DNA from: Hyalangium gracile
GTDB lineage: Bacteria; Myxococcota; Myxococcia; Myxococcales; Myxococcaceae
NCBI RefSeq assembly: GCF_020103725.1
Contig: NZ_JAHXBG010000001.1
Coordinates: forward strand, 682,001 to 746,000
Direction of reading: 5' to 3'
Length of the DNA: 64,000 nt
Numbering within the stretch: position 1 is the stretch's first letter; each line of letters starts with the position of its first letter. Under the pieces are notes generated by a model. It ran no database searches and was not told the origin of the DNA. It saw only the letters and a list, made by a program, of their open reading frames with translations. Of the stretch, positions 4,897-61,263 are shown in pieces. Both the position numbers and the translations under genes were made by a program.

Positions 4897-5410
4897 GGGC
4901 CTGCTCCCGCGCCAGGCGCGTGATGAACAGCGCGAGCCCCTGCACCTCCGCCGTCCCGAACCGCTGCAGCCCTTCGGGTGCACCCTCGGGGAGCCGGGGC
5001 GCATCGCTCACCACCGCGAGCACATCCGAGCGCTGCGAGGCCAGCAGCGGTCCATGGCCCTCGCGCCAGACCTCGAGCTTGGGCAGGGGCCCGTCCTTCC
5101 AGCCTTCCACCAGGACCACATCCACCACGTCTCCAAAGCGCTCGAGCAGCGGCAGCAGCGCCTTCTCCGGCGGCTCCTGCACGGAGAGCTGCACGCCGGC
5201 CGGCGTGGCGAAGGCAACCAGGGCGGCACCGCCTCGCTCGAAGCGGGCCGTGTCGCTGCCGGAGCGGTGCAGCGGGTGTTGATCCGAGGAGTGCTTCACC
5301 ACGCCGACGCGCAGGCCTCGGGCGCGCAGCTCGGGCACGAGCCGCTCCACGAGCGTCGTCTTCCCCACGCCGGACCAGCCGATGATGCTCACGGCGGGAG
5401 GGCCCTTCAT
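4886..5410 (-). CDS. mobB: Molybdopterin-guanine dinucleotide biosynthesis protein MobB
   Basis: MobB is a small GTP-binding protein that assists MobA in attaching GMP to molybdopterin. The 174-residue sequence opens with a P-loop, IIGWSGVGKTTL, then has the KHSSDQHPLHRSGSDTARF block expected in this family and a VLVEGWKDGPLPKLEVWR stretch near the middle. The length is typical. Its ATG overlaps the moeA stop by four bases and its end overlaps fdhD, so the three genes form one tightly coupled operon. No odd features were seen. Confidence 0.94.
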   Translation of the reverse strand: MKGPPAVSIIGWSGVGKTTLVERLVPELRARGLRVGVVKHSSDQHPLHRSGSDTARFERGGAALVAFATPAGVQLSVQEPPEKALLPLLERFGDVVDVVLVEGWKDGPLPKLEVWREGHGPLLASQRSDVLAVVSDAPRLPEGAPEGLQRFGTAEVQGLALFITRLAREQAHES

Positions 5411-6651
5411 CCGCCCACCGCCACGTAGCGAGGCCGATCGAACAGCTCCACCTCCACCTCATCGCCCTCGGAGAAGTCGGCTCGGCCGGGAGGCAGGACG
5501 GCGAAGCCCTCGGAGCCCACGTTCTGGAGGATCTGCCCCGAGCCCTGGGGCCGCATCATGGCCCACGGGAGTCCTCCGCCCTCGCGGTGCTCCACGGTGG
5601 CGGTGATGAGGTAGGTGAAGCCGGCCTGCTTGTGCCGCGCCTCGGAGAGCCGAGCCCGCACGCGCCGACGCTCCTCACGAACGCCCTGGAGCTCGAGCAG
5701 CAGCGGCCGGCCGAGCTGGTCGAACGCGACGGTCGCCGCGCCCGGGTTGCCGGGGAGCACGACCATCGCCAGCGCTCCGAGCCGCGCCACCGCCACGGGC
5801 TTGCCGGGCTTGAGGGCCACGCCGTCCACGAAGAACCGGGCGCCCAGCTCGGAGAGCACGCGCTTGACGCGATCCTTGTCACCCACGGAGGCGCCCCCGG
5901 TGGTGATGAGCACATCCACCCGAGGCGCCAGCCGCGTGATGGCGGTCCGCAGCTCCGCGTCGTCATCGCGAGCGCGCTCGGTGGCCACCACCTCCGCGCC
6001 GGCCTCGCGAGCCAGGGCGGCAATGAGGATGAGGTTGCTCTCGTACACCTGGTGAGGCAGGGCGGGTGTCCCGGGAGAGATCAGCTCATCGCCCGTGGCC
6101 AGCACGGCCACGCGCGGCGAGGGGCGCACGAGCGCGGTGGCGGCCCCCATGGACGCGAGCACGCCCAGGACGTTGGCGTCCGCGCGCTGCCCGGCCGGGA
6201 AGAGCGCGGTGCCCGCCACCACCTCCTCTCCGGCGCGGCGGATGTCATGGCCTGGAGGAACGGTGATGAAGACGGACACGAGGCCGTCACCCTCGGCGCG
6301 AGCAGCCTCCTGACGGACCACGGCATCGGCACCCGGAGGAATGGGAGCGCCGGTGAAGACACGGGCCGCCTCACCAGGCTGAAGGGCACGCGAGGCCGGG
6401 GCACCGGCGTAGACGGTGTCGACGATGCGCAGGCGCGCGGGCCGATCCCGATTGGCGCCGAGCGTCTCCTCGGAGCGCACGGCCCACCCATCCATGGCGG
6501 AGTTGTCGCAGCCGGGCAGCGAGCGCGAGGCACTCACGGCCATGGCCAGGAAGCGGCCGTGGGCCTGGAGCAGGGGTACGGGCTCGGGCGGGGCCGGGGT
6601 GACGGCCTCGAGTGCGGCTTGCCGTGCGGAGGTGAGCGAAGTGAGCGACAT
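5407..6651 (-). CDS. moeA: Molybdopterin molybdotransferase MoeA
   Basis: MoeA inserts molybdenum into adenylylated molybdopterin. The 414-residue protein contains the conserved CDNSAMDGWA motif near residue 47, the GVLASMGA and TGDEL blocks, TTGGASVGDKD in the MoCF-like domain, and LKPGKPVAVA plus LPGNPGAA near the C-terminal domain. Length and order match the family. The start was placed at MSLTSL because the upstream codons run through the intergenic repeat region and do not resemble MoeA. It is the first gene of the moeA-mobB-fdhD operon and diverges from mobA across a 319-base region rich in inverted repeats, which is the probable site of control. Confidence 0.95.
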   Translation of the reverse strand: MSLTSLTSARQAALEAVTPAPPEPVPLLQAHGRFLAMAVSASRSLPGCDNSAMDGWAVRSEETLGANRDRPARLRIVDTVYAGAPASRALQPGEAARVFTGAPIPPGADAVVRQEAARAEGDGLVSVFITVPPGHDIRRAGEEVVAGTALFPAGQRADANVLGVLASMGAATALVRPSPRVAVLATGDELISPGTPALPHQVYESNLILIAALAREAGAEVVATERARDDDAELRTAITRLAPRVDVLITTGGASVGDKDRVKRVLSELGARFFVDGVALKPGKPVAVARLGALAMVVLPGNPGAATVAFDQLGRPLLLELQGVREERRRVRARLSEARHKQAGFTYLITATVEHREGGGLPWAMMRPQGSGQILQNVGSEGFAVLPPGRADFSEGDEVEVELFDRPRYVAVGG

Positions 6652-6732
6652 GGGCTTGCGCCAGGACCCCAGCCTCCAACAAAAGCCGGGGAGGGAGAAA
6701 CTACCCCGAGAGCGAGCGGCGCATGCTGGACA

Positions 6733-6767
6733 GAACACCCACCCGAGCGCCGAAGGGGTGGGTGTTC
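6733..6767. repeat. 12-bp perfect inverted repeat in moeA leader
   Basis: The arms GAACACCCACCC (6733-6744) and GGGTGGGTGTTC (6756-6767) are exactly complementary and flank 11 bases. The structure sits about 80 bases upstream of the moeA start and would form a strong hairpin in the moeA leader RNA, or it could act as a DNA operator. No run of T follows on either strand, so a simple terminator is unlikely. It is too small and different in layout to be the known Moco riboswitch. Confidence 0.7.
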
Positions 6768-6808
6768 GCTGGCGAAGGAAGCCGCGGGGGTCGGCGAGAT
6801 GCTGGGCC

Positions 6809-6833
6809 AACTGGTACTACAAGCAGACCAGTT
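6809..6833 (+). repeat. Dispersed hairpin repeat, copy 1
   Basis: Arms AACTGGT and ACCAGTT flank the 11-base loop ACTACAAGCAG. The same arm-loop-arm design recurs at 6881, 47799, 53552 and 53615. This copy lies inside a directly repeated segment shared with copy 2, 72 bases away. Confidence 0.8.
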
Positions 6834-23850: not shown

Positions 23851-24855
23851 TCACTCTCCGAAGGTCGTGCCCACGCTGAGGTTGAGCAGCCCGGGGTACT
23901 CGAGCTGGCCGTGGTGGCCGATGATGTGACTGTAGACAGGAATGCGGAGCGTGAGCCCGAGCTGAGTGGCGCCCGTGCTCCAGTGCAGCCCGCCGCCCAC
24001 GAGCACATCCGTGCGGCCGAGGTTGCCGTCCTGCTGGACGATGCCGCCCCAGCGCTCGGGCTGCTCGTTGGCCATGTCCGCGCCGGCCGAGGCCCAGAGG
24101 GTGCCCGCCACGTTCAGGCTCCCGGAGAGCCCGAGGCTGAAGCGGTGGCCGGCACGGAAGCCGCGGGAGTTCTCCGCCACGGAGAGCCAGGCCTGTCCCC
24201 ACAGGCGCGCGCTCCAGGAGTCCCAGGCGCGCTCGGCCTCCAGGGCCAGCAGGGGCTGCACGGTGCCGGTGCCGAACTGGACGTGCTGGTGGGGCTGGCC
24301 CGCGGCGCCGAGGGCGAAGGGGTCCTCCACGGTGTTGCCCAGCGGCACGGTGAAGCCCGCGCGCGTGGTGAGCCGCACCTGTCCGAGGAGGAAGGCATGG
24401 CGCGCCTGCACCCACGGGTCGCCCAGGCCGAAGAGCGTCTCGTCGCGGTGGTGGATGTTCTCGTAGTCGAGCGTGACGGGCGTGCCATCCAGGCGCCGGA
24501 ACTGGATGGTGGTGCGGTTGAGGCGCAGCGGCACCTGGAGCTCCACGCCGAGCGCATCCGTGAAGGCGTGCTCCGCGCTGGCGCGCAGCTCTCCGATGGC
24601 GAAGCGCTGGTCATGTATCTGCGGAGGCTCGTCGCGCTCGGCGCAGATGGGGCCGATGTCCGGGCAGGCGGACTCGTGCGTGGTGCGCACGGTGGTGGTC
24701 AGCAGGGAGAGCTGGAGGAATGTCTGTCCTGACTTCAGCCTGGCGGCGGTGTTCCTCCCGACCGGGAGGTTGGGATTGCTTCAACCCGCGCAGGCGTCGG
24801 CGGAGGAGGGGAGGCCCAGCGCGAGCAGGCCGAGGGCGATGACGAGCCATCTCAT
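23851..24855 (-). CDS. Putative selenoprotein: exported outer-membrane beta-barrel with in-frame UGA (Sec25)
   Basis: The reading frame starts at an ATG overlapping the stop of the thioredoxin gene (ATGA). It encodes a signal peptide (MRWLVIALGLLALGLP) ending near SSADA, then Cys-Ala-Gly, then TGA at 24781-24783. The same frame continues without a stop for 309 codons as SNPNLPVGRN and a beta-rich, Trp/Gly-rich barrel of the MetA-like transporter type (blocks CPDIGP, HDQRF, TRAGFTVPLGNT). A C-A-G-stop layout with a hairpin 11 bases downstream suggests that UGA is read as selenocysteine in a CxxU redox motif. If it is a real stop, only a 24-residue peptide is made, and the barrel would have to start at an internal GTG (24690) without a signal peptide. 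Full length is 334 residues. Confidence 0.72.
24754..24769 (-). promoter_or_regulatory. Candidate bacterial SECIS hairpin
   Basis: On the mRNA, CCUCCC and GGGAGG pair perfectly around the tetraloop GGUC, starting exactly 11 bases after the UGA. From memory, the E. coli fdhF element also has a GGUC apical loop and an 11-base spacing. The stem here lacks the bulged U known to help SelB binding in E. coli, but SECIS elements vary between phyla. It lies inside the coding sequence, as bacterial SECIS elements must. Confidence 0.65.
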
Positions 24856-25502
24856 CGCGAGGCCCCCTCGGCGATGGCGGCGTCGAGCGCGGAGAGGTCG
24901 AATCCCGTGACGCTGCGCACGGGCTTGCCATCCCTTCCATAGACGATGAGGTAGGGGAGGTTGGGGACGCTGGCCAGGTAGCGCCTGGCGAGAGGCGTCT
25001 CCCAGGAGACGACGTTGAGCTTGCGGTAGGCGATGTCCTGGCGCTGGTTGAGCAGACCGAACATGTGGACATCCACCTTGCGGCAGGGGCCGCACCAGTC
25101 GGCGTAGAAGTCGAAGACGGTGACCTTGCCCGCGACGGCGTGGGAGGCGAGGTCCGGCACATCCTCTCCCTGGAGCGAGAGCCGCTTCAGGTCGGCGTCG
25201 GCGGAGAGGACGGGGAGCGGATCGAAGGAGAGATCCGGGTGGCACTGGAAGCACTGGGACTCGGGGACGGAGTGCTCACCGCACCAGTCCTTGGCGGCCA
25301 TGAAGCGAGGCGCCAGCTCGGGGTTGCAGCGGGTGCAGTTCTCCTGAGGGACGCGGTGCTCGCAGAAGGCGGCATCCGGGCGGGAGGCCGCGCTGAGGGA
25401 GCTGAGCTCGCCATGGGCCGGCGTGGAGGCGGGACGAGAAGAGGCACAACCGGCGGTGGCCAGCACGGCGCCACCGAGGAGCAGGGATGGGAAGAGACGC
25501 AT
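24852..25502 (-). CDS. Thioredoxin-fold lipoprotein with Cys-rich metal-binding-like repeats
   Basis: This 216-residue lipoprotein has a signal ending in AVLATAGC with the lipidated Cys19. Two short repeats of the form C-x-EH-x-VP-x4-C-x2-C-x-P follow (Cys47/56/59 and Cys74/84/87), a motif also seen at the N-terminus of some heavy-metal efflux adaptors. A thioredoxin domain then carries the active site FYADWCGPC (Cys137 and Cys140) and the cis-Pro loop VPNLPYLIVYG. It probably acts as a periplasmic thiol-disulfide protein. Its stop overlaps the start of the selenoprotein-like barrel gene, which makes the barrel its likely redox partner. The ATG was preferred to a GTG six codons upstream. Confidence 0.88.
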   Translation of the reverse strand: MRLFPSLLLGGAVLATAGCASSRPASTPAHGELSSLSAASRPDAAFCEHRVPQENCTRCNPELAPRFMAAKDWCGEHSVPESQCFQCHPDLSFDPLPVLSADADLKRLSLQGEDVPDLASHAVAGKVTVFDFYADWCGPCRKVDVHMFGLLNQRQDIAYRKLNVVSWETPLARRYLASVPNLPYLIVYGRDGKPVRSVTGFDLSALDAAIAEGASR

Positions 25503-25622
25503 GAGAAGGCGATGCTGCACGTGCGAGAGCGCGAGGGACGTTGCGGAGAAGGAGGACGAGAGCGTTACCGAACGAAGCCCAGAGTCGCAAGCAGCCGAGG
25601 GTCTTCCTCCATGGGAACTCCG

Positions 25623-57552: not shown

Positions 57553-58206
57553 TCAGCGCTGCTCGCGGGCGAGGCGATCGGCGTCGCGCAGCAGGCGGCC
57601 GAAGGCCTCGTCATCGGCGCTCTCGTAGTAGCCGCGAATCTCGCCCTGGGCGTCCACGAGGACGAAGTGGTTGCCGTGGAAGATGCCCATCACGTCCGCC
57701 TCGTCCATGGACTCGCGGCCCATGGCGATCTTGAAGCTGTTGACGACGGTGTCCTTGAGGCGGGCGTAGTCGCCGGTGAGGAAGCTCCAGCGGGCGGCGT
57801 TGGCGCCGTGCTTCTGGGCGTACTCGGAGAGGCGCGCCGGCGTGTCGTAGGTGGGGTCCACCGAGAAGGAGACGAGCTGGAGCCCGGGCCCGAACGCCTC
57901 TGTCTCCTTCTGCACCCGCGCCATCTTCCGGGTGAAGGCCGGGCAGACGGTGGGGCAGCGGGTGAAGATGAAGTTGGCCACATAGGGGTGGCCGCGCAGC
58001 TGCGCCGAGCCGAACGCGGCTCCGTCCTGGCGGGTGAAGCTGTAGTCCGGCAGGGCGCCGAGCCTGGGCAAAGGCTCGGAGCGCCCGCGCATCAGGCCGA
58101 TCGACAGCGCGAGCAGGCCGACGGCCAGGGTGGCGACTCCCACCCAGAGCGCGGGGTGGCGGAGGAGGGAGGGCTGGGGAGGGGCGGCGGCGGTGTCTGC
58201 GGACAT
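57553..58206 (-). CDS. sco: SCO1/SenC family copper chaperone
   Basis: This 217-residue membrane-anchored thioredoxin-like protein delivers copper to the CuA site of cytochrome oxidase. A transmembrane helix lies at about 20-38. The copper-binding cysteines are Cys84 and Cys88 in FIFTRCPTVCPAF, and the third ligand His lies in VMGIFHGNHFVLVD. The start at MSADTAAA was chosen because the long upstream frame is not family sequence. It is divergent from the oxidase operon, which it serves, across a spacer of about 308 bases. Confidence 0.93.
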   Translation of the reverse strand: MSADTAAAPPQPSLLRHPALWVGVATLAVGLLALSIGLMRGRSEPLPRLGALPDYSFTRQDGAAFGSAQLRGHPYVANFIFTRCPTVCPAFTRKMARVQKETEAFGPGLQLVSFSVDPTYDTPARLSEYAQKHGANAARWSFLTGDYARLKDTVVNSFKIAMGRESMDEADVMGIFHGNHFVLVDAQGEIRGYYESADDEAFGRLLRDADRLAREQR

Positions 58207-58514
58207 AAGGAGCACCGGACAGCTAACGGATGTGCCCCGGGAGCACAAGGGACGGTTTGACGCGGCGCGGTGGCTGGAGGGCCGGGGAGCGCCCGGAGCC
58301 TGGTGGCCAGCGGGCGGCCGGGCACGCACGGGGTGAAGGGGCCTTGTCCCGGCGGCGCTTGAGGGGCGAGAGGGGGCATGGTAGCCGGTGAGGCTTGCCG
58401 ATGCCCTGTGTCCGTCCTGATCGCGGTGTCACCGCGGCCCCCTCCTCGGAGCGGGCTGGAGCGAGGGAGCCGCGCGCCGTGGCGGGTGGGCGACGCGAAT
58501 GGGAGCGGTGGGCG
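58207..58514. other. Spacer between sco and the oxidase operon
   Basis: This is about 308 bases without a credible gene and probably contains divergent promoters for the two units. No clear -35/-10 or -24/-12 pair was found. The frame upstream of 58515 continues in-frame to a TTG at 58395 and an ATG at 58401, but that part lacks family sequence, so it was not included in the small membrane protein gene. Confidence 0.5.
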
Positions 58515-58724
58515 GTGAGGCTGGCGCCAGTGCTGGGGCTGGGGCTGTGCCTGCTGCCGGCCTGGGTGCTGGCGTGCCCCACGTGCGTGGAGCGGGCGCC
58601 GGAGTCGTCGATGCGCTCGGCGCTGCTGGTGGGCGCCATGCTGCTGTTGCCGTTCCTGTTGGTGGCGCTGGGAGTGTGGGCGGCGATCCGGGCGGCGAGA
58701 GGTGACGCGAAGAGGAGCTCGTGA
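58515..58724 (+). CDS. Small CxxC membrane protein of the oxidase operon
   Basis: This is a 69-residue protein starting at GTG after a GGGAG ribosome site. A signal-like helix (VLGLGLCLLPAWVLA) is followed directly by CPTCVERAPES, then a second membrane helix (SALLVGAMLLLPFLLVALGVW). The short CPTC motif facing the periplasm suggests redox or metal handling linked to oxidase assembly. Its stop overlaps the ATG of the subunit II gene, so it is co-translated. An upstream start would give a longer protein but no family support. Confidence 0.7.
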   Translation: MRLAPVLGLGLCLLPAWVLACPTCVERAPESSMRSALLVGAMLLLPFLLVALGVWAAIRAARGDAKRSS

Positions 58725-59515
58725 TGGATGCAGCGCCCCCGCCTCCCGGAGCCGAGCCCCGCCGCCCCGTGAGCACGGTGGCGCTGCCCGAGGACGCGAG
58801 CACCCACGGCCACCGCATCGACTCGCTGCTGGCGCTCAGCCACCGCTTCGACCTCATCCTCACGGGGGTGATGGTGGGCTGGCTGCTGCTGACGCTGGTG
58901 CGCTTCCGGGGGGCTCGGAAGGTGCCCGCGGATGGCGGGACGCGGCGCAGCCGGATGCTGGTGATGGTGGCGGCGCTGACGATTTTCGGGGTGGTGGACG
59001 GCTCGCTCTTCGCGCGCTCGCTGGGCTACCTGGATGACGTGCTGTGGAACTTCGACGTGCCGGCCGGCAACCCGGACACGGTGCGCCTGGAGGTGAACGC
59101 TCGGCAGTGGGCGTGGGAGGCGCGGTACGCGGGGCAGGACGGGCGCTTCAACACGGCGGATGACGTGGTGACGTGGAGCGACCTTCGGGTGCCGGTGGGC
59201 GTGCCGGTGTGGGTGCAATTGGCGTCCACGGATGTGGTGCACGGCTTCTCGCTGCCGAACTTCCGGGTGAAGCTGGATGCGATTCCGGGCCGGGTGAACC
59301 AGACGTGGTTCCAGGCGGCGAAGCTGGGGACGTGGGAGGTGGCCTGCTACCAGCACTGCGGCACCAGCCACTACAAGATGCGAGGCACGCTGACGGTGAT
59401 GACGCCCGAGGACTACGCGGCGTGGCTGCGCGAGCAGAGCCGGCAGGCGGCGCGCCTGTATGACGCTCAGGACACGGCGGCGCACTGGGGCTGGGAGTGG
59501 AGGCCGAAGCCATGA
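58724..59515 (+). CDS. coxB: Cytochrome c oxidase subunit II
   Basis: This is a 263-residue subunit II. Two transmembrane helices (about 42-62 and 78-98) precede the periplasmic CuA domain. The copper site shows STDVVHGFSLPNF with the first His ligand, and VACYQHCGTSHYKMRG with the Cys-x3-Cys pair, His and Met. The aromatic block ARQWAWEARY, which receives electrons from cytochrome c, is present. The domain ends without a fused cytochrome c. It overlaps the preceding small protein and the following subunit I gene. Confidence 0.95.
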   Translation: MDAAPPPPGAEPRRPVSTVALPEDASTHGHRIDSLLALSHRFDLILTGVMVGWLLLTLVRFRGARKVPADGGTRRSRMLVMVAALTIFGVVDGSLFARSLGYLDDVLWNFDVPAGNPDTVRLEVNARQWAWEARYAGQDGRFNTADDVVTWSDLRVPVGVPVWVQLASTDVVHGFSLPNFRVKLDAIPGRVNQTWFQAAKLGTWEVACYQHCGTSHYKMRGTLTVMTPEDYAAWLREQSRQAARLYDAQDTAAHWGWEWRPKP

Positions 59516-61263
59516 GGCTGTTCTCCACGGACCATAAGGTGGTGGCGCGGCAGTTCCTCTGGGCTGGGTTTGGCTTCCTGCTGCTGGGCGGGCTGCTGGC
59601 GATGCTCATCCGCTGGCAGTGGGCGTACCCGGGGCGGCCGGTGCCGGGGCTCGGGGCGGTGCTGCCGAGCGCGGACGGATCGATTACCCCGCCGGCGTAC
59701 ATGGGGCTGTTCACCATGCACGGGCTGGTGATGGTGTTCTTCGCCATCGCCCCGCTGCTCATCGGCGCGCTGGGCAACTTCGTGGTGCCGCTGGCGGTGG
59801 GGGCGCGCGGCATGGCGTTCCCGAAGCTGTCGGCGCTGAGCTTCTGGGTGTTCGCGGTGGGCGGAGCGCTGGTGCTGGCCTCGTTCGGGGTGCGGCTGGG
59901 GACGGCGAGCGCGGCGTGGACGTCCTATCCGCCGCTGTCCACGCACGTGTTCACCCCGGGGGCGGGACAGACGCTGGTGATGATGGGCGTGCTGTGCGCG
60001 GCGGTGTCGTCCTTCCTCAGCGCGGTGAACTACGTGGTGACGGTGGTGCGAGCGCGGGCGCCGGGGATGACGTGGGGGCGGCTGCCGCTGACGGTGTGGG
60101 GGCTGTTCCTCACCTCGGTGCTGAACCTGCTGTTCATCCCGGTGGTGGCGGCGGCCACGGGGCTGCTGCTGCTGGACAGGCTCACGGGCACGCGCTTCTT
60201 CCTCGAGGGCGCGGCGGTGGCGGGCCGCGGCGGCGACCCGATGCTGTACCAGCACCTGTTCTGGATGTTCGGGCACCCCGAGGTCTACATCCTCATCCTC
60301 CCGGGCTGGGGAATGATTGGCGACATGGTGTCCTACTTCAGCCGGCGGCCGGCGCACGGGTACCGGGGCACGGTGCTGGCGATGAGCACGGTGTCCGCGC
60401 TGTCCGGGCTGGTGTACGCGCACCACCTCTTCACCAGCGGACTGTCGCCGATGCTGGGGCGGGCCTTCAGCACGCTGACGCTGATCATCTCGCTGCCGTC
60501 GACGGTGATGTTCCTCAACTGGCTGGTGACGATGTGGCGCGGGAGCGTGCGGCTGACGGCGCCGCTCCTGGCGGCGGTGGGGGCGATGGTGGTGTTCGGG
60601 CTGGGAGGCATTACGGGCCTGGCGCTGGGAGCGGTGGCCACGGACATCCCGCTGCACGGGACGATGTGGGTGGTGGGGCACTTCCACCTGACGATGGGCG
60701 CGGCCAGCTTCCTGGCGGTGTTCGCGGGGCTCTACTTCTGGTTCCCGAAGATGTTCGGGCGGACGCTGCACGCGGGGCTGTCGAAGACGCACGTGGTGCT
60801 GACGGCGGTGCTGTTCCTCGCGGTGTTCGGCGGCCAGCTGCTGACGGGGTACGCGGGCCAGCTGCGCCGGCTGTATGACCCGTACCAGTACGAGTACCTG
60901 CGGCACCTGCTCACGCTGAACAAGGGCACGAGCCACGCGGCGTTCACGCTGGGCCTGGTGCAGCTGCTGTTCGTGGTGAACCTGGTGTGGTCGCTGCGCA
61001 AGGGGCCTGCGGCGGACGCGAACCCGTGGCAGGTGGGCACGCTGGAGTGGACGTGCGCGCCGAGCCCGCCGCCGGTGGACAACTACGCGCAGGTGCCGGT
61101 GGTGGTGCGCGGGCCGTATGCGCTCTCGCAGCCGGAGGGGCTGGAGCAGCTGGGGCGTGACTGGATCGGCCAGGCGGAGGTGCTGCCGGACGAGGCGCGC
61201 CGAGCGCCGGAGGCCCCGGCGGAAGCGGCTCCGGTGGTGCCGAGCGCGGGAGGTGTGGGGTGA
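59512..61263 (+). CDS. coxA: Cytochrome c oxidase subunit I
   Basis: This is a 583-residue haem-copper oxidase subunit I with 12 or more membrane helices. The haem ligand His lies in FTMHGLVMVFF near the start. The HPEVYILILPG motif holds the CuB ligand and the His-Tyr pair, and the GLVYAHHLFTSGL block supplies further CuB ligands. The later VVGHFHLTMGAA motif carries the second haem ligand. The start at MRLFSTDHK overlaps the subunit II stop by four bases. It is the catalytic core that reduces oxygen and pumps protons. Confidence 0.96.
   Translation: MRLFSTDHKVVARQFLWAGFGFLLLGGLLAMLIRWQWAYPGRPVPGLGAVLPSADGSITPPAYMGLFTMHGLVMVFFAIAPLLIGALGNFVVPLAVGARGMAFPKLSALSFWVFAVGGALVLASFGVRLGTASAAWTSYPPLSTHVFTPGAGQTLVMMGVLCAAVSSFLSAVNYVVTVVRARAPGMTWGRLPLTVWGLFLTSVLNLLFIPVVAAATGLLLLDRLTGTRFFLEGAAVAGRGGDPMLYQHLFWMFGHPEVYILILPGWGMIGDMVSYFSRRPAHGYRGTVLAMSTVSALSGLVYAHHLFTSGLSPMLGRAFSTLTLIISLPSTVMFLNWLVTMWRGSVRLTAPLLAAVGAMVVFGLGGITGLALGAVATDIPLHGTMWVVGHFHLTMGAASFLAVFAGLYFWFPKMFGRTLHAGLSKTHVVLTAVLFLAVFGGQLLTGYAGQLRRLYDPYQYEYLRHLLTLNKGTSHAAFTLGLVQLLFVVNLVWSLRKGPAADANPWQVGTLEWTCAPSPPPVDNYAQVPVVVRGPYALSQPEGLEQLGRDWIGQAEVLPDEARRAPEAPAEAAPVVPSAGGVG

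Follow-up and report, generated by a model that had tools for sequence, protein, structure and literature searches.

Selenoproteins known to date are, going by the table of a 2026 review of such families (PMC13188914), mostly thioredoxin-fold proteins or cofactor enzymes. Table 1 of the same review, which covers 119 families, also contains two outer-membrane barrel selenoproteins, one of the GSU2204 MtrB/PioB-type and one TonB-dependent of the FCYXU-type, so that the remark, made in the original prediction for the present locus, that a selenoprotein of this kind was not known to be described does not stand. As regards barrels of the fold discussed below, the N-terminal 14 residues of the solved COG4313 channel are described, in PMC4493636, as folding into the lumen and occluding it.

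The window, i.e. the whole stretch of 64,000 nucleotides that was analysed, contains a barrel gene with an in-frame UGA which, as judged from comparative genomics, is very probably read as selenocysteine (Sec). Outer-membrane barrel selenoproteins are, as a kind, already known, and we read the gene as a member of a new, unnamed family of selenoproteins. No entry of the 119-family table in PMC13188914 was recognised as this family by name or motif, the hypothetical-protein entries of the table being compared solely by NCBIfam and motif, and searches of the open-access PMC literature brought up nothing describing this barrel selenoprotein family. A scan of 27 members against NCBIfam 20.0 (E <= 0.1) gave no match to any selenoprotein model, the single family match being NF041723 (RiPP) for one member with an E value of 9.1e-4; NF041027 and NF049945 were also unmatched, which holds if the release includes both models. 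The gene would add a myxobacterial family to the selenoproteins, one whose members standard gene prediction would truncate at this codon.

Gene layout

The features of the locus are collected in Table 1. The original prediction had described an ATG overlapping the thioredoxin stop, a Cys-Ala-Gly-UGA stretch and 309 further codons in the same frame, and this description is accurate: the ATG of the barrel gene (24855-24853) overlaps the stop of the thioredoxin gene as ATGA, 309 sense codons follow the UGA, and the terminal stop (23853-23851) is also a TGA. The in-frame UGA and its SECIS-like hairpin were confirmed on the minus strand, the spacing of 11 bases, the 6-bp stem and the GGUC loop being found exactly as claimed. 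A molybdenum cofactor gene had also been announced for the window, and moeA is indeed present (MoeA, 5407-6810); elsewhere the window encodes an SCO1/SenC protein (57553-58329) and cytochrome oxidase subunits II and I (58721-61263).

Table 1. Features of the barrel locus, in positions of the window.
Feature	Position	Strand	Remark
Candidate selenoprotein gene: signal peptide, N-terminal CAGU, predicted 12-stranded barrel	23851..24855	-	334 residues, Sec included, and a stop
Signal-peptide codons 1-21, ending Ala-Asp-Ala ahead of Cys22	24793..24855	-	Cleavage after AxA read by eye
CAGU redox-type motif, codons 22-25 (TGC GCG GGT TGA)	24781..24792	-	UxxU, CxxU or CxxC in most relatives
In-frame UGA, taken as selenocysteine codon	24781..24783	-	Aligns with Sec or Cys in the family
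Predicted SECIS, 6-bp stem and GGUC loop (CCTCCC-GGTC-GGGAGG)	24754..24769	-	Exactly 11 nt 3' of the UGA
Thioredoxin-domain gene (PF00085, WCGPC), upstream of the barrel gene	24852..25520	-	Likely ATG at 25502 (by reading)
His-Gln-His, residues 189-191, invariant	24283..24291	-	Loop placed outside the cell by strand counting
His-His-Arg, residues 135-137, conserved	24445..24453	-	Loop placed outside the cell by strand counting

Homologues and the Sec/Cys pattern

A scan of named-species genomes yielded 28 loci, mostly from Myxococcota, with the non-myxococcal ones coming from an Acidobacteria bin (1), Poribacteria bins (3), a bin labelled Proteobacteria and a truncated Planctomycetota contig (1); further loci came from searches of 195 genomes belonging to the window's phylum and 396 belonging to the phylum of the Acidobacteria bin. 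Within the bacterial family to which the window belongs, 19 of 96 genomes have a match, corresponding to 18 full-length copies (16 with TGA and 2 with Cys) and one C-terminal remnant. The distribution is patchy, one of the seven genomes of the window's genus carrying the gene. Barrel matches confined to the C-terminal part (L089-L093 and L099-L105) were excluded from the family counts; they are probably ordinary paralogous channels, and a script search found the motif to be absent from L099, L100 and L105.

After removal of identical sites, 46 distinct motif sites were obtained, in which the last motif codon is TGA in 37 (33 plus four added from genomes in the phylum of the Acidobacteria bin) and Cys in 9. 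Concerning the question raised with the original prediction, whether homologues carry Cys at the UGA position, the alignment places Sec or Cys at exactly that codon. The Sec sites are UxxU in 27 cases, CxxU in 10 and UxxC in none of the 37, and one-Sec forms always have Sec at the second motif position. In 27 aligned proteins this second position is invariant (Cys or Sec) and the first nearly so; the first Cys is lost in two of the nine Cys forms (L057 and L062). In a 42-protein tree, two-Sec forms occur throughout, and the one-Sec and Cys forms require two and four label changes, respectively. From this unrooted tree Sec appears to be old in the family and Cys mostly derived. When the window gene is compared with seven relatives, dN/dS 3' of the TGA is about 0.32-0.41, i.e. 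purifying selection.

The same comparison bears on the idea that the UGA closes a short leader and the barrel restarts downstream, or that it is a regulated stop yielding a truncated secreted peptide. A GTG-started frame does exist 3' of the UGA (23851-24690), but its GTG lies some 30 codons past the UGA, so that the signal peptide and a conserved SNPNLPVG block would both be lost, and the Cys forms continue straight through the same region. A restart 3' of the UGA was rejected on these grounds, and we regard this whole class of readings as very improbable. Genome-wide reassignment of TGA was also rejected, since the gene and many of its relatives terminate in TGA as well.

The hairpin downstream of the UGA

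The hairpin of the window gene is the minimum-energy structure given by ViennaRNA (-11.4 kcal/mol) and is not unusual by folding energy alone, with a z of -1.1 and 29 of 200 shuffles folding as well; the weight of the SECIS evidence lies in conservation and covariation and not in folding energy. Concerning chance occurrence, a 6-bp hairpin with a 4-nt loop at +11 follows 5 of the 1276 TGA trinucleotides of the window (both strands), and the candidate's is the one with a GGTC loop. Sampling codons at their local frequencies under a fixed peptide produces the full stem with GGTC in 0.7% of cases. A scan of the window with Rfam gave no match, a result whose reach depends on which SECIS families Rfam includes.

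A stem of 6 bp capped by a GGUC loop starts at +11 nt in 29 of the 37 Sec sites. These 29 sites, 28 of them distinct, form a gap-free alignment which was used for covariation, and the stem cells have standard pairs in 168 of 168 cases, compared with 46-64% in slid-register controls. The two covarying pairs, 15-30 (CG, UA, GC) and 18-27 (CG, GC, UA, GU), both link third codon positions, where 22 double compensations were counted, and on the tree, with 27 GGUC rows in it, they changed at least four and at least five separate times, respectively. The covariation score was reached by none of 500 shuffles. Two of the five covariation measures fall within the shuffles (pairs with double change, 421/500 as high; pair types, 259/500 as high), because just two pairs are free to vary on both sides. 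The eight Cys forms compared, a set that retains L054, L056, L057 and L062, lack the stem, with 24 of 48 cells paired, inside the 31-58% of their slid controls. On this silent-site covariation and on the lack of a stem in the Cys forms, the predicted hairpin is under selection as RNA.

The remaining 8 of the 37 Sec sites, from Poribacteria and from deep or Acidobacterial branches, have no GGUC hairpin; a differently shaped one is seen there by eye. Two of them, L065 and L085, were folded, and the minimum-energy fold of L085 differs from the hairpin drawn by eye. Sec sites with other loops (L065-L067, L085, L086, L088, L097 and L098) and the Cys site L084 stand outside the covariation counts.

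In the UxxU loci (L028, L032, L058, L065 and others) two UGAs are separated by two codons (6 nt) and followed by one conserved hairpin; in the GGUC class the stem starts 11 nt past the second UGA and 20 nt past the first. Whether a single bacterial SECIS is able to act on two codons is a question for which these two-UGA members form a natural test case.

Selenocysteine machinery

The search for selA, selB, selC and selD that had been proposed for the window's genome found all of them, with selA at 577 bits, selB at 285 bits (over the cut-off), selD at 377 bits and a tRNA-Sec with anticodon TCA. Across genomes, selB exceeds its curated cut-off in 30 of 33 Sec-form genomes as against 4 of 9 Cys-form genomes (Fisher p = 0.006), these machinery counts covering the Sec genomes other than the four added from the Acidobacteria bin's phylum and including many bins that are possibly incomplete. 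Each of the three Sec genomes below the selB cut-off has tRNA-Sec, and two of them have hits in long frames that narrowly miss the threshold. The tRNA-Sec itself is over its cut-off in 32 of the 33 Sec genomes, the exception (G195) having selB at 344 bits, and in 4 of the 9 Cys genomes, where one of the four scores is marginal at 50.5 bits. Within the window's bacterial family all 16 Sec genomes have selB, which is a weak test at this level because 85 of the 96 genomes have it anyway. It should be noted that the selD of the window's genome, listed under locus L038, has one in-frame TGA, likewise in a CAGU context, and that SelD is, from this codon, probably a selenoprotein here as well.

These data also settle how much credit can be given to the view that the TGA is an ordinary stop, reflecting decay of the gene or, as the original prediction had allowed for, a nonsense mutation or an error in the sequence. 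In its favour, the gene's own terminal codon is also TGA, and one relative, G068, truly is a decayed remnant, its copy (L035) consisting of thioredoxin fragments and the last ~79 barrel codons with an in-frame TAG. Against it, the TGA persists at 37 of the 46 sites across several phyla, the sequence downstream is under purifying selection, the hairpin covaries and the Sec machinery is present. The conserved TGA, the downstream selection and the covariation contradict this view, and its remaining probability is, in our estimate, negligible. For insertion of Sec at the predicted site, the support comes close to the most that comparative genomics can give.

Predicted barrel and thioredoxin partner

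An AlphaFold2 model of the protein is a barrel, predicted with good confidence (mean pLDDT 87.2, pTM 0.82) and with 12 strands by reading of the DSSP line. Over its first 40 residues the pLDDT is low to moderate, with block means of 38-67. The best PDB match is 4rl8, with a Foldseek E value of 1.3e-10 and a VIA Z of 23.4 (245 residues, 2.7 A), the alignment beginning at model residue 32; FapF is the second-ranked solved match. No Pfam profile matches the window protein, PF13557 (Phenol_MetA_deg) included; for that profile, 4 of 27 relatives give weak matches with E values of 0.1 or less, the best being 2.3e-4. The proposal of a candidate selenoprotein with an outer-membrane barrel is supported, and none of the three outcomes named against it, i.e. 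missing machinery, homologues with neither Cys nor Sec at the site, and a TGA arising by error or mutation, occurred.

Of 42 distinct loci, 27 have a thioredoxin-domain gene directly upstream of the barrel gene, one being cut by a contig end. In six more (L032, L033, L034, L057, L062 and L082) the thioredoxin is fused to the barrel C-terminus, making these natural barrel-thioredoxin proteins, and in the other nine, all three Poribacteria among them, it was not found. These 42 are the loci other than the four sites from the Acidobacteria bin's phylum. The window thioredoxin is likely lipoprotein-like, its start reading MRLF...LATAGC, and has two CxEHxVPxxxCxxCxP-like repeats (25209-25388) ahead of the WCGPC domain. 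In a comparison of 29 loci, any neighbour other than the thioredoxin and shadow frames of the two genes recurs in four at the most. The other neighbour clusters comprise 3 or 4 loci each and most are confined to one clade; an Lhr-type helicase upstream spans two clades (L046, L047, L049 and L059).

The main rival to a redox function accepts the selenoprotein and takes the Sec/Cys pair to be a ligand for soft metals (e.g. copper, mercury or a metalloid) on a channel that handles metals, with the thioredoxin merely keeping the pair reduced. It draws on the conserved HHR and HQH residues, both in loops that strand counting places outside the cell, and on the repeats of the thioredoxin, a stretch that resembles an annotated RND efflux adaptor of plasmid NZ_CP011274 (46.9% identity over query residues 8-54, E 3e-4), the sole other record matched being a hypothetical protein. 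Moreover, the families treated in PMC13188914 include several transporter and metal-linked selenoproteins. However, the scarcity of shared neighbours other than the thioredoxin speaks against it, none of the 20 neighbour frames run against Pfam is a metal-resistance gene, and a thioredoxin acting as reductant fits the redox reading equally well. On balance we consider the metal-ligand role unlikely.

Proposed function

We favour the redox reading, in which the family is probably a plug recharged by thioredoxin. On the comparative evidence, SelB and tRNA-Sec would insert Sec at the UGA under the direction of the hairpin 11 nt downstream. The protein would then be exported and its signal peptide removed, giving a predicted 12-stranded outer-membrane barrel of the COG4313 fold. 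CAGU or UAGU would fall within the first few mature residues, ahead of a segment that, from the similarity of fold, may plug the lumen, and by analogy with the COG4313 channel the N-terminal Cys/Sec residues may themselves plug it. The neighbouring or fused thioredoxin would keep or recharge the Cys/Sec pair; in the fused forms it is attached to the barrel C-terminus, which should end on the periplasmic side. The most likely use of such a redox-active plug would be that the pair reduces, captures or is gated by whatever enters the channel. The second position would be the reactive residue and the first its resolving partner, which fits the one-Sec forms having Sec always at the invariant second position.

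Taken as a whole, i.e. a new Sec family, SECIS-directed insertion, a barrel of the COG4313 fold and a redox-active plug serviced by thioredoxin, we consider this explanation the best and hold it with good confidence. A bolder version would be a family of selenium-plugged channels in which, in most members, two Sec at the extreme N-terminus of the mature barrel form a diselenide/selenol switch in the lumen, with a dedicated periplasmic thioredoxin and both UGAs under one SECIS; this we put forward tentatively, as a conjecture that more probably fails than holds. That an outer-membrane channel begins with a conserved Cys/Sec pair, and mostly has a dedicated thioredoxin as neighbour, suggests redox chemistry at the outer membrane, a site where reductant should be in short supply.

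Comparison with known systems

The original prediction had likened the loop and spacing of the hairpin to those of the E. coli fdhF SECIS, and both indeed have GGUC in the apical loop, starting 18 nt past the UGA in fdhF and 17 nt past it here. The fdhF fold is more interrupted, whereas the window hairpin is a plain 6-bp stem on a GGUC tetraloop.

TonB receptors are 22-stranded, whereas the protein described here has 334 residues and a 12-stranded barrel model, and no profile match connects it with the TonB-dependent receptors of the FCYXU type (NF049945). The two have in common that they are outer-membrane proteins with a CxxU-type motif, according to the entry in PMC13188914 and to the deep-Sep paper. 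The GSU2204-type MtrB/PioB proteins (NF041027) are likewise outer-membrane barrels predicted to contain Sec (PMC13188914); their entry in the review gives no motif, and the 27 members of the present family have no match to an NCBIfam selenoprotein model. The Sec thiol oxidoreductases with UxxC or UxxU, as listed in PMC13188914, share the four-residue Cys/Sec pair. In the present family, however, Sec would sit at the N-terminus of a barrel and not on a thioredoxin fold, the WCxxC thioredoxin being a separate or fused partner. Concerning the fold itself, the closest systems are the COG4313 / Phenol_MetA_deg channels (4rl8, Pput2725), which have the 12-stranded barrel in common with the model of the window protein. 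With respect to 4rl8 the sequence identity is about 15-16%, and the present family differs by its CxxU/UxxU motif and its usual thioredoxin partner.
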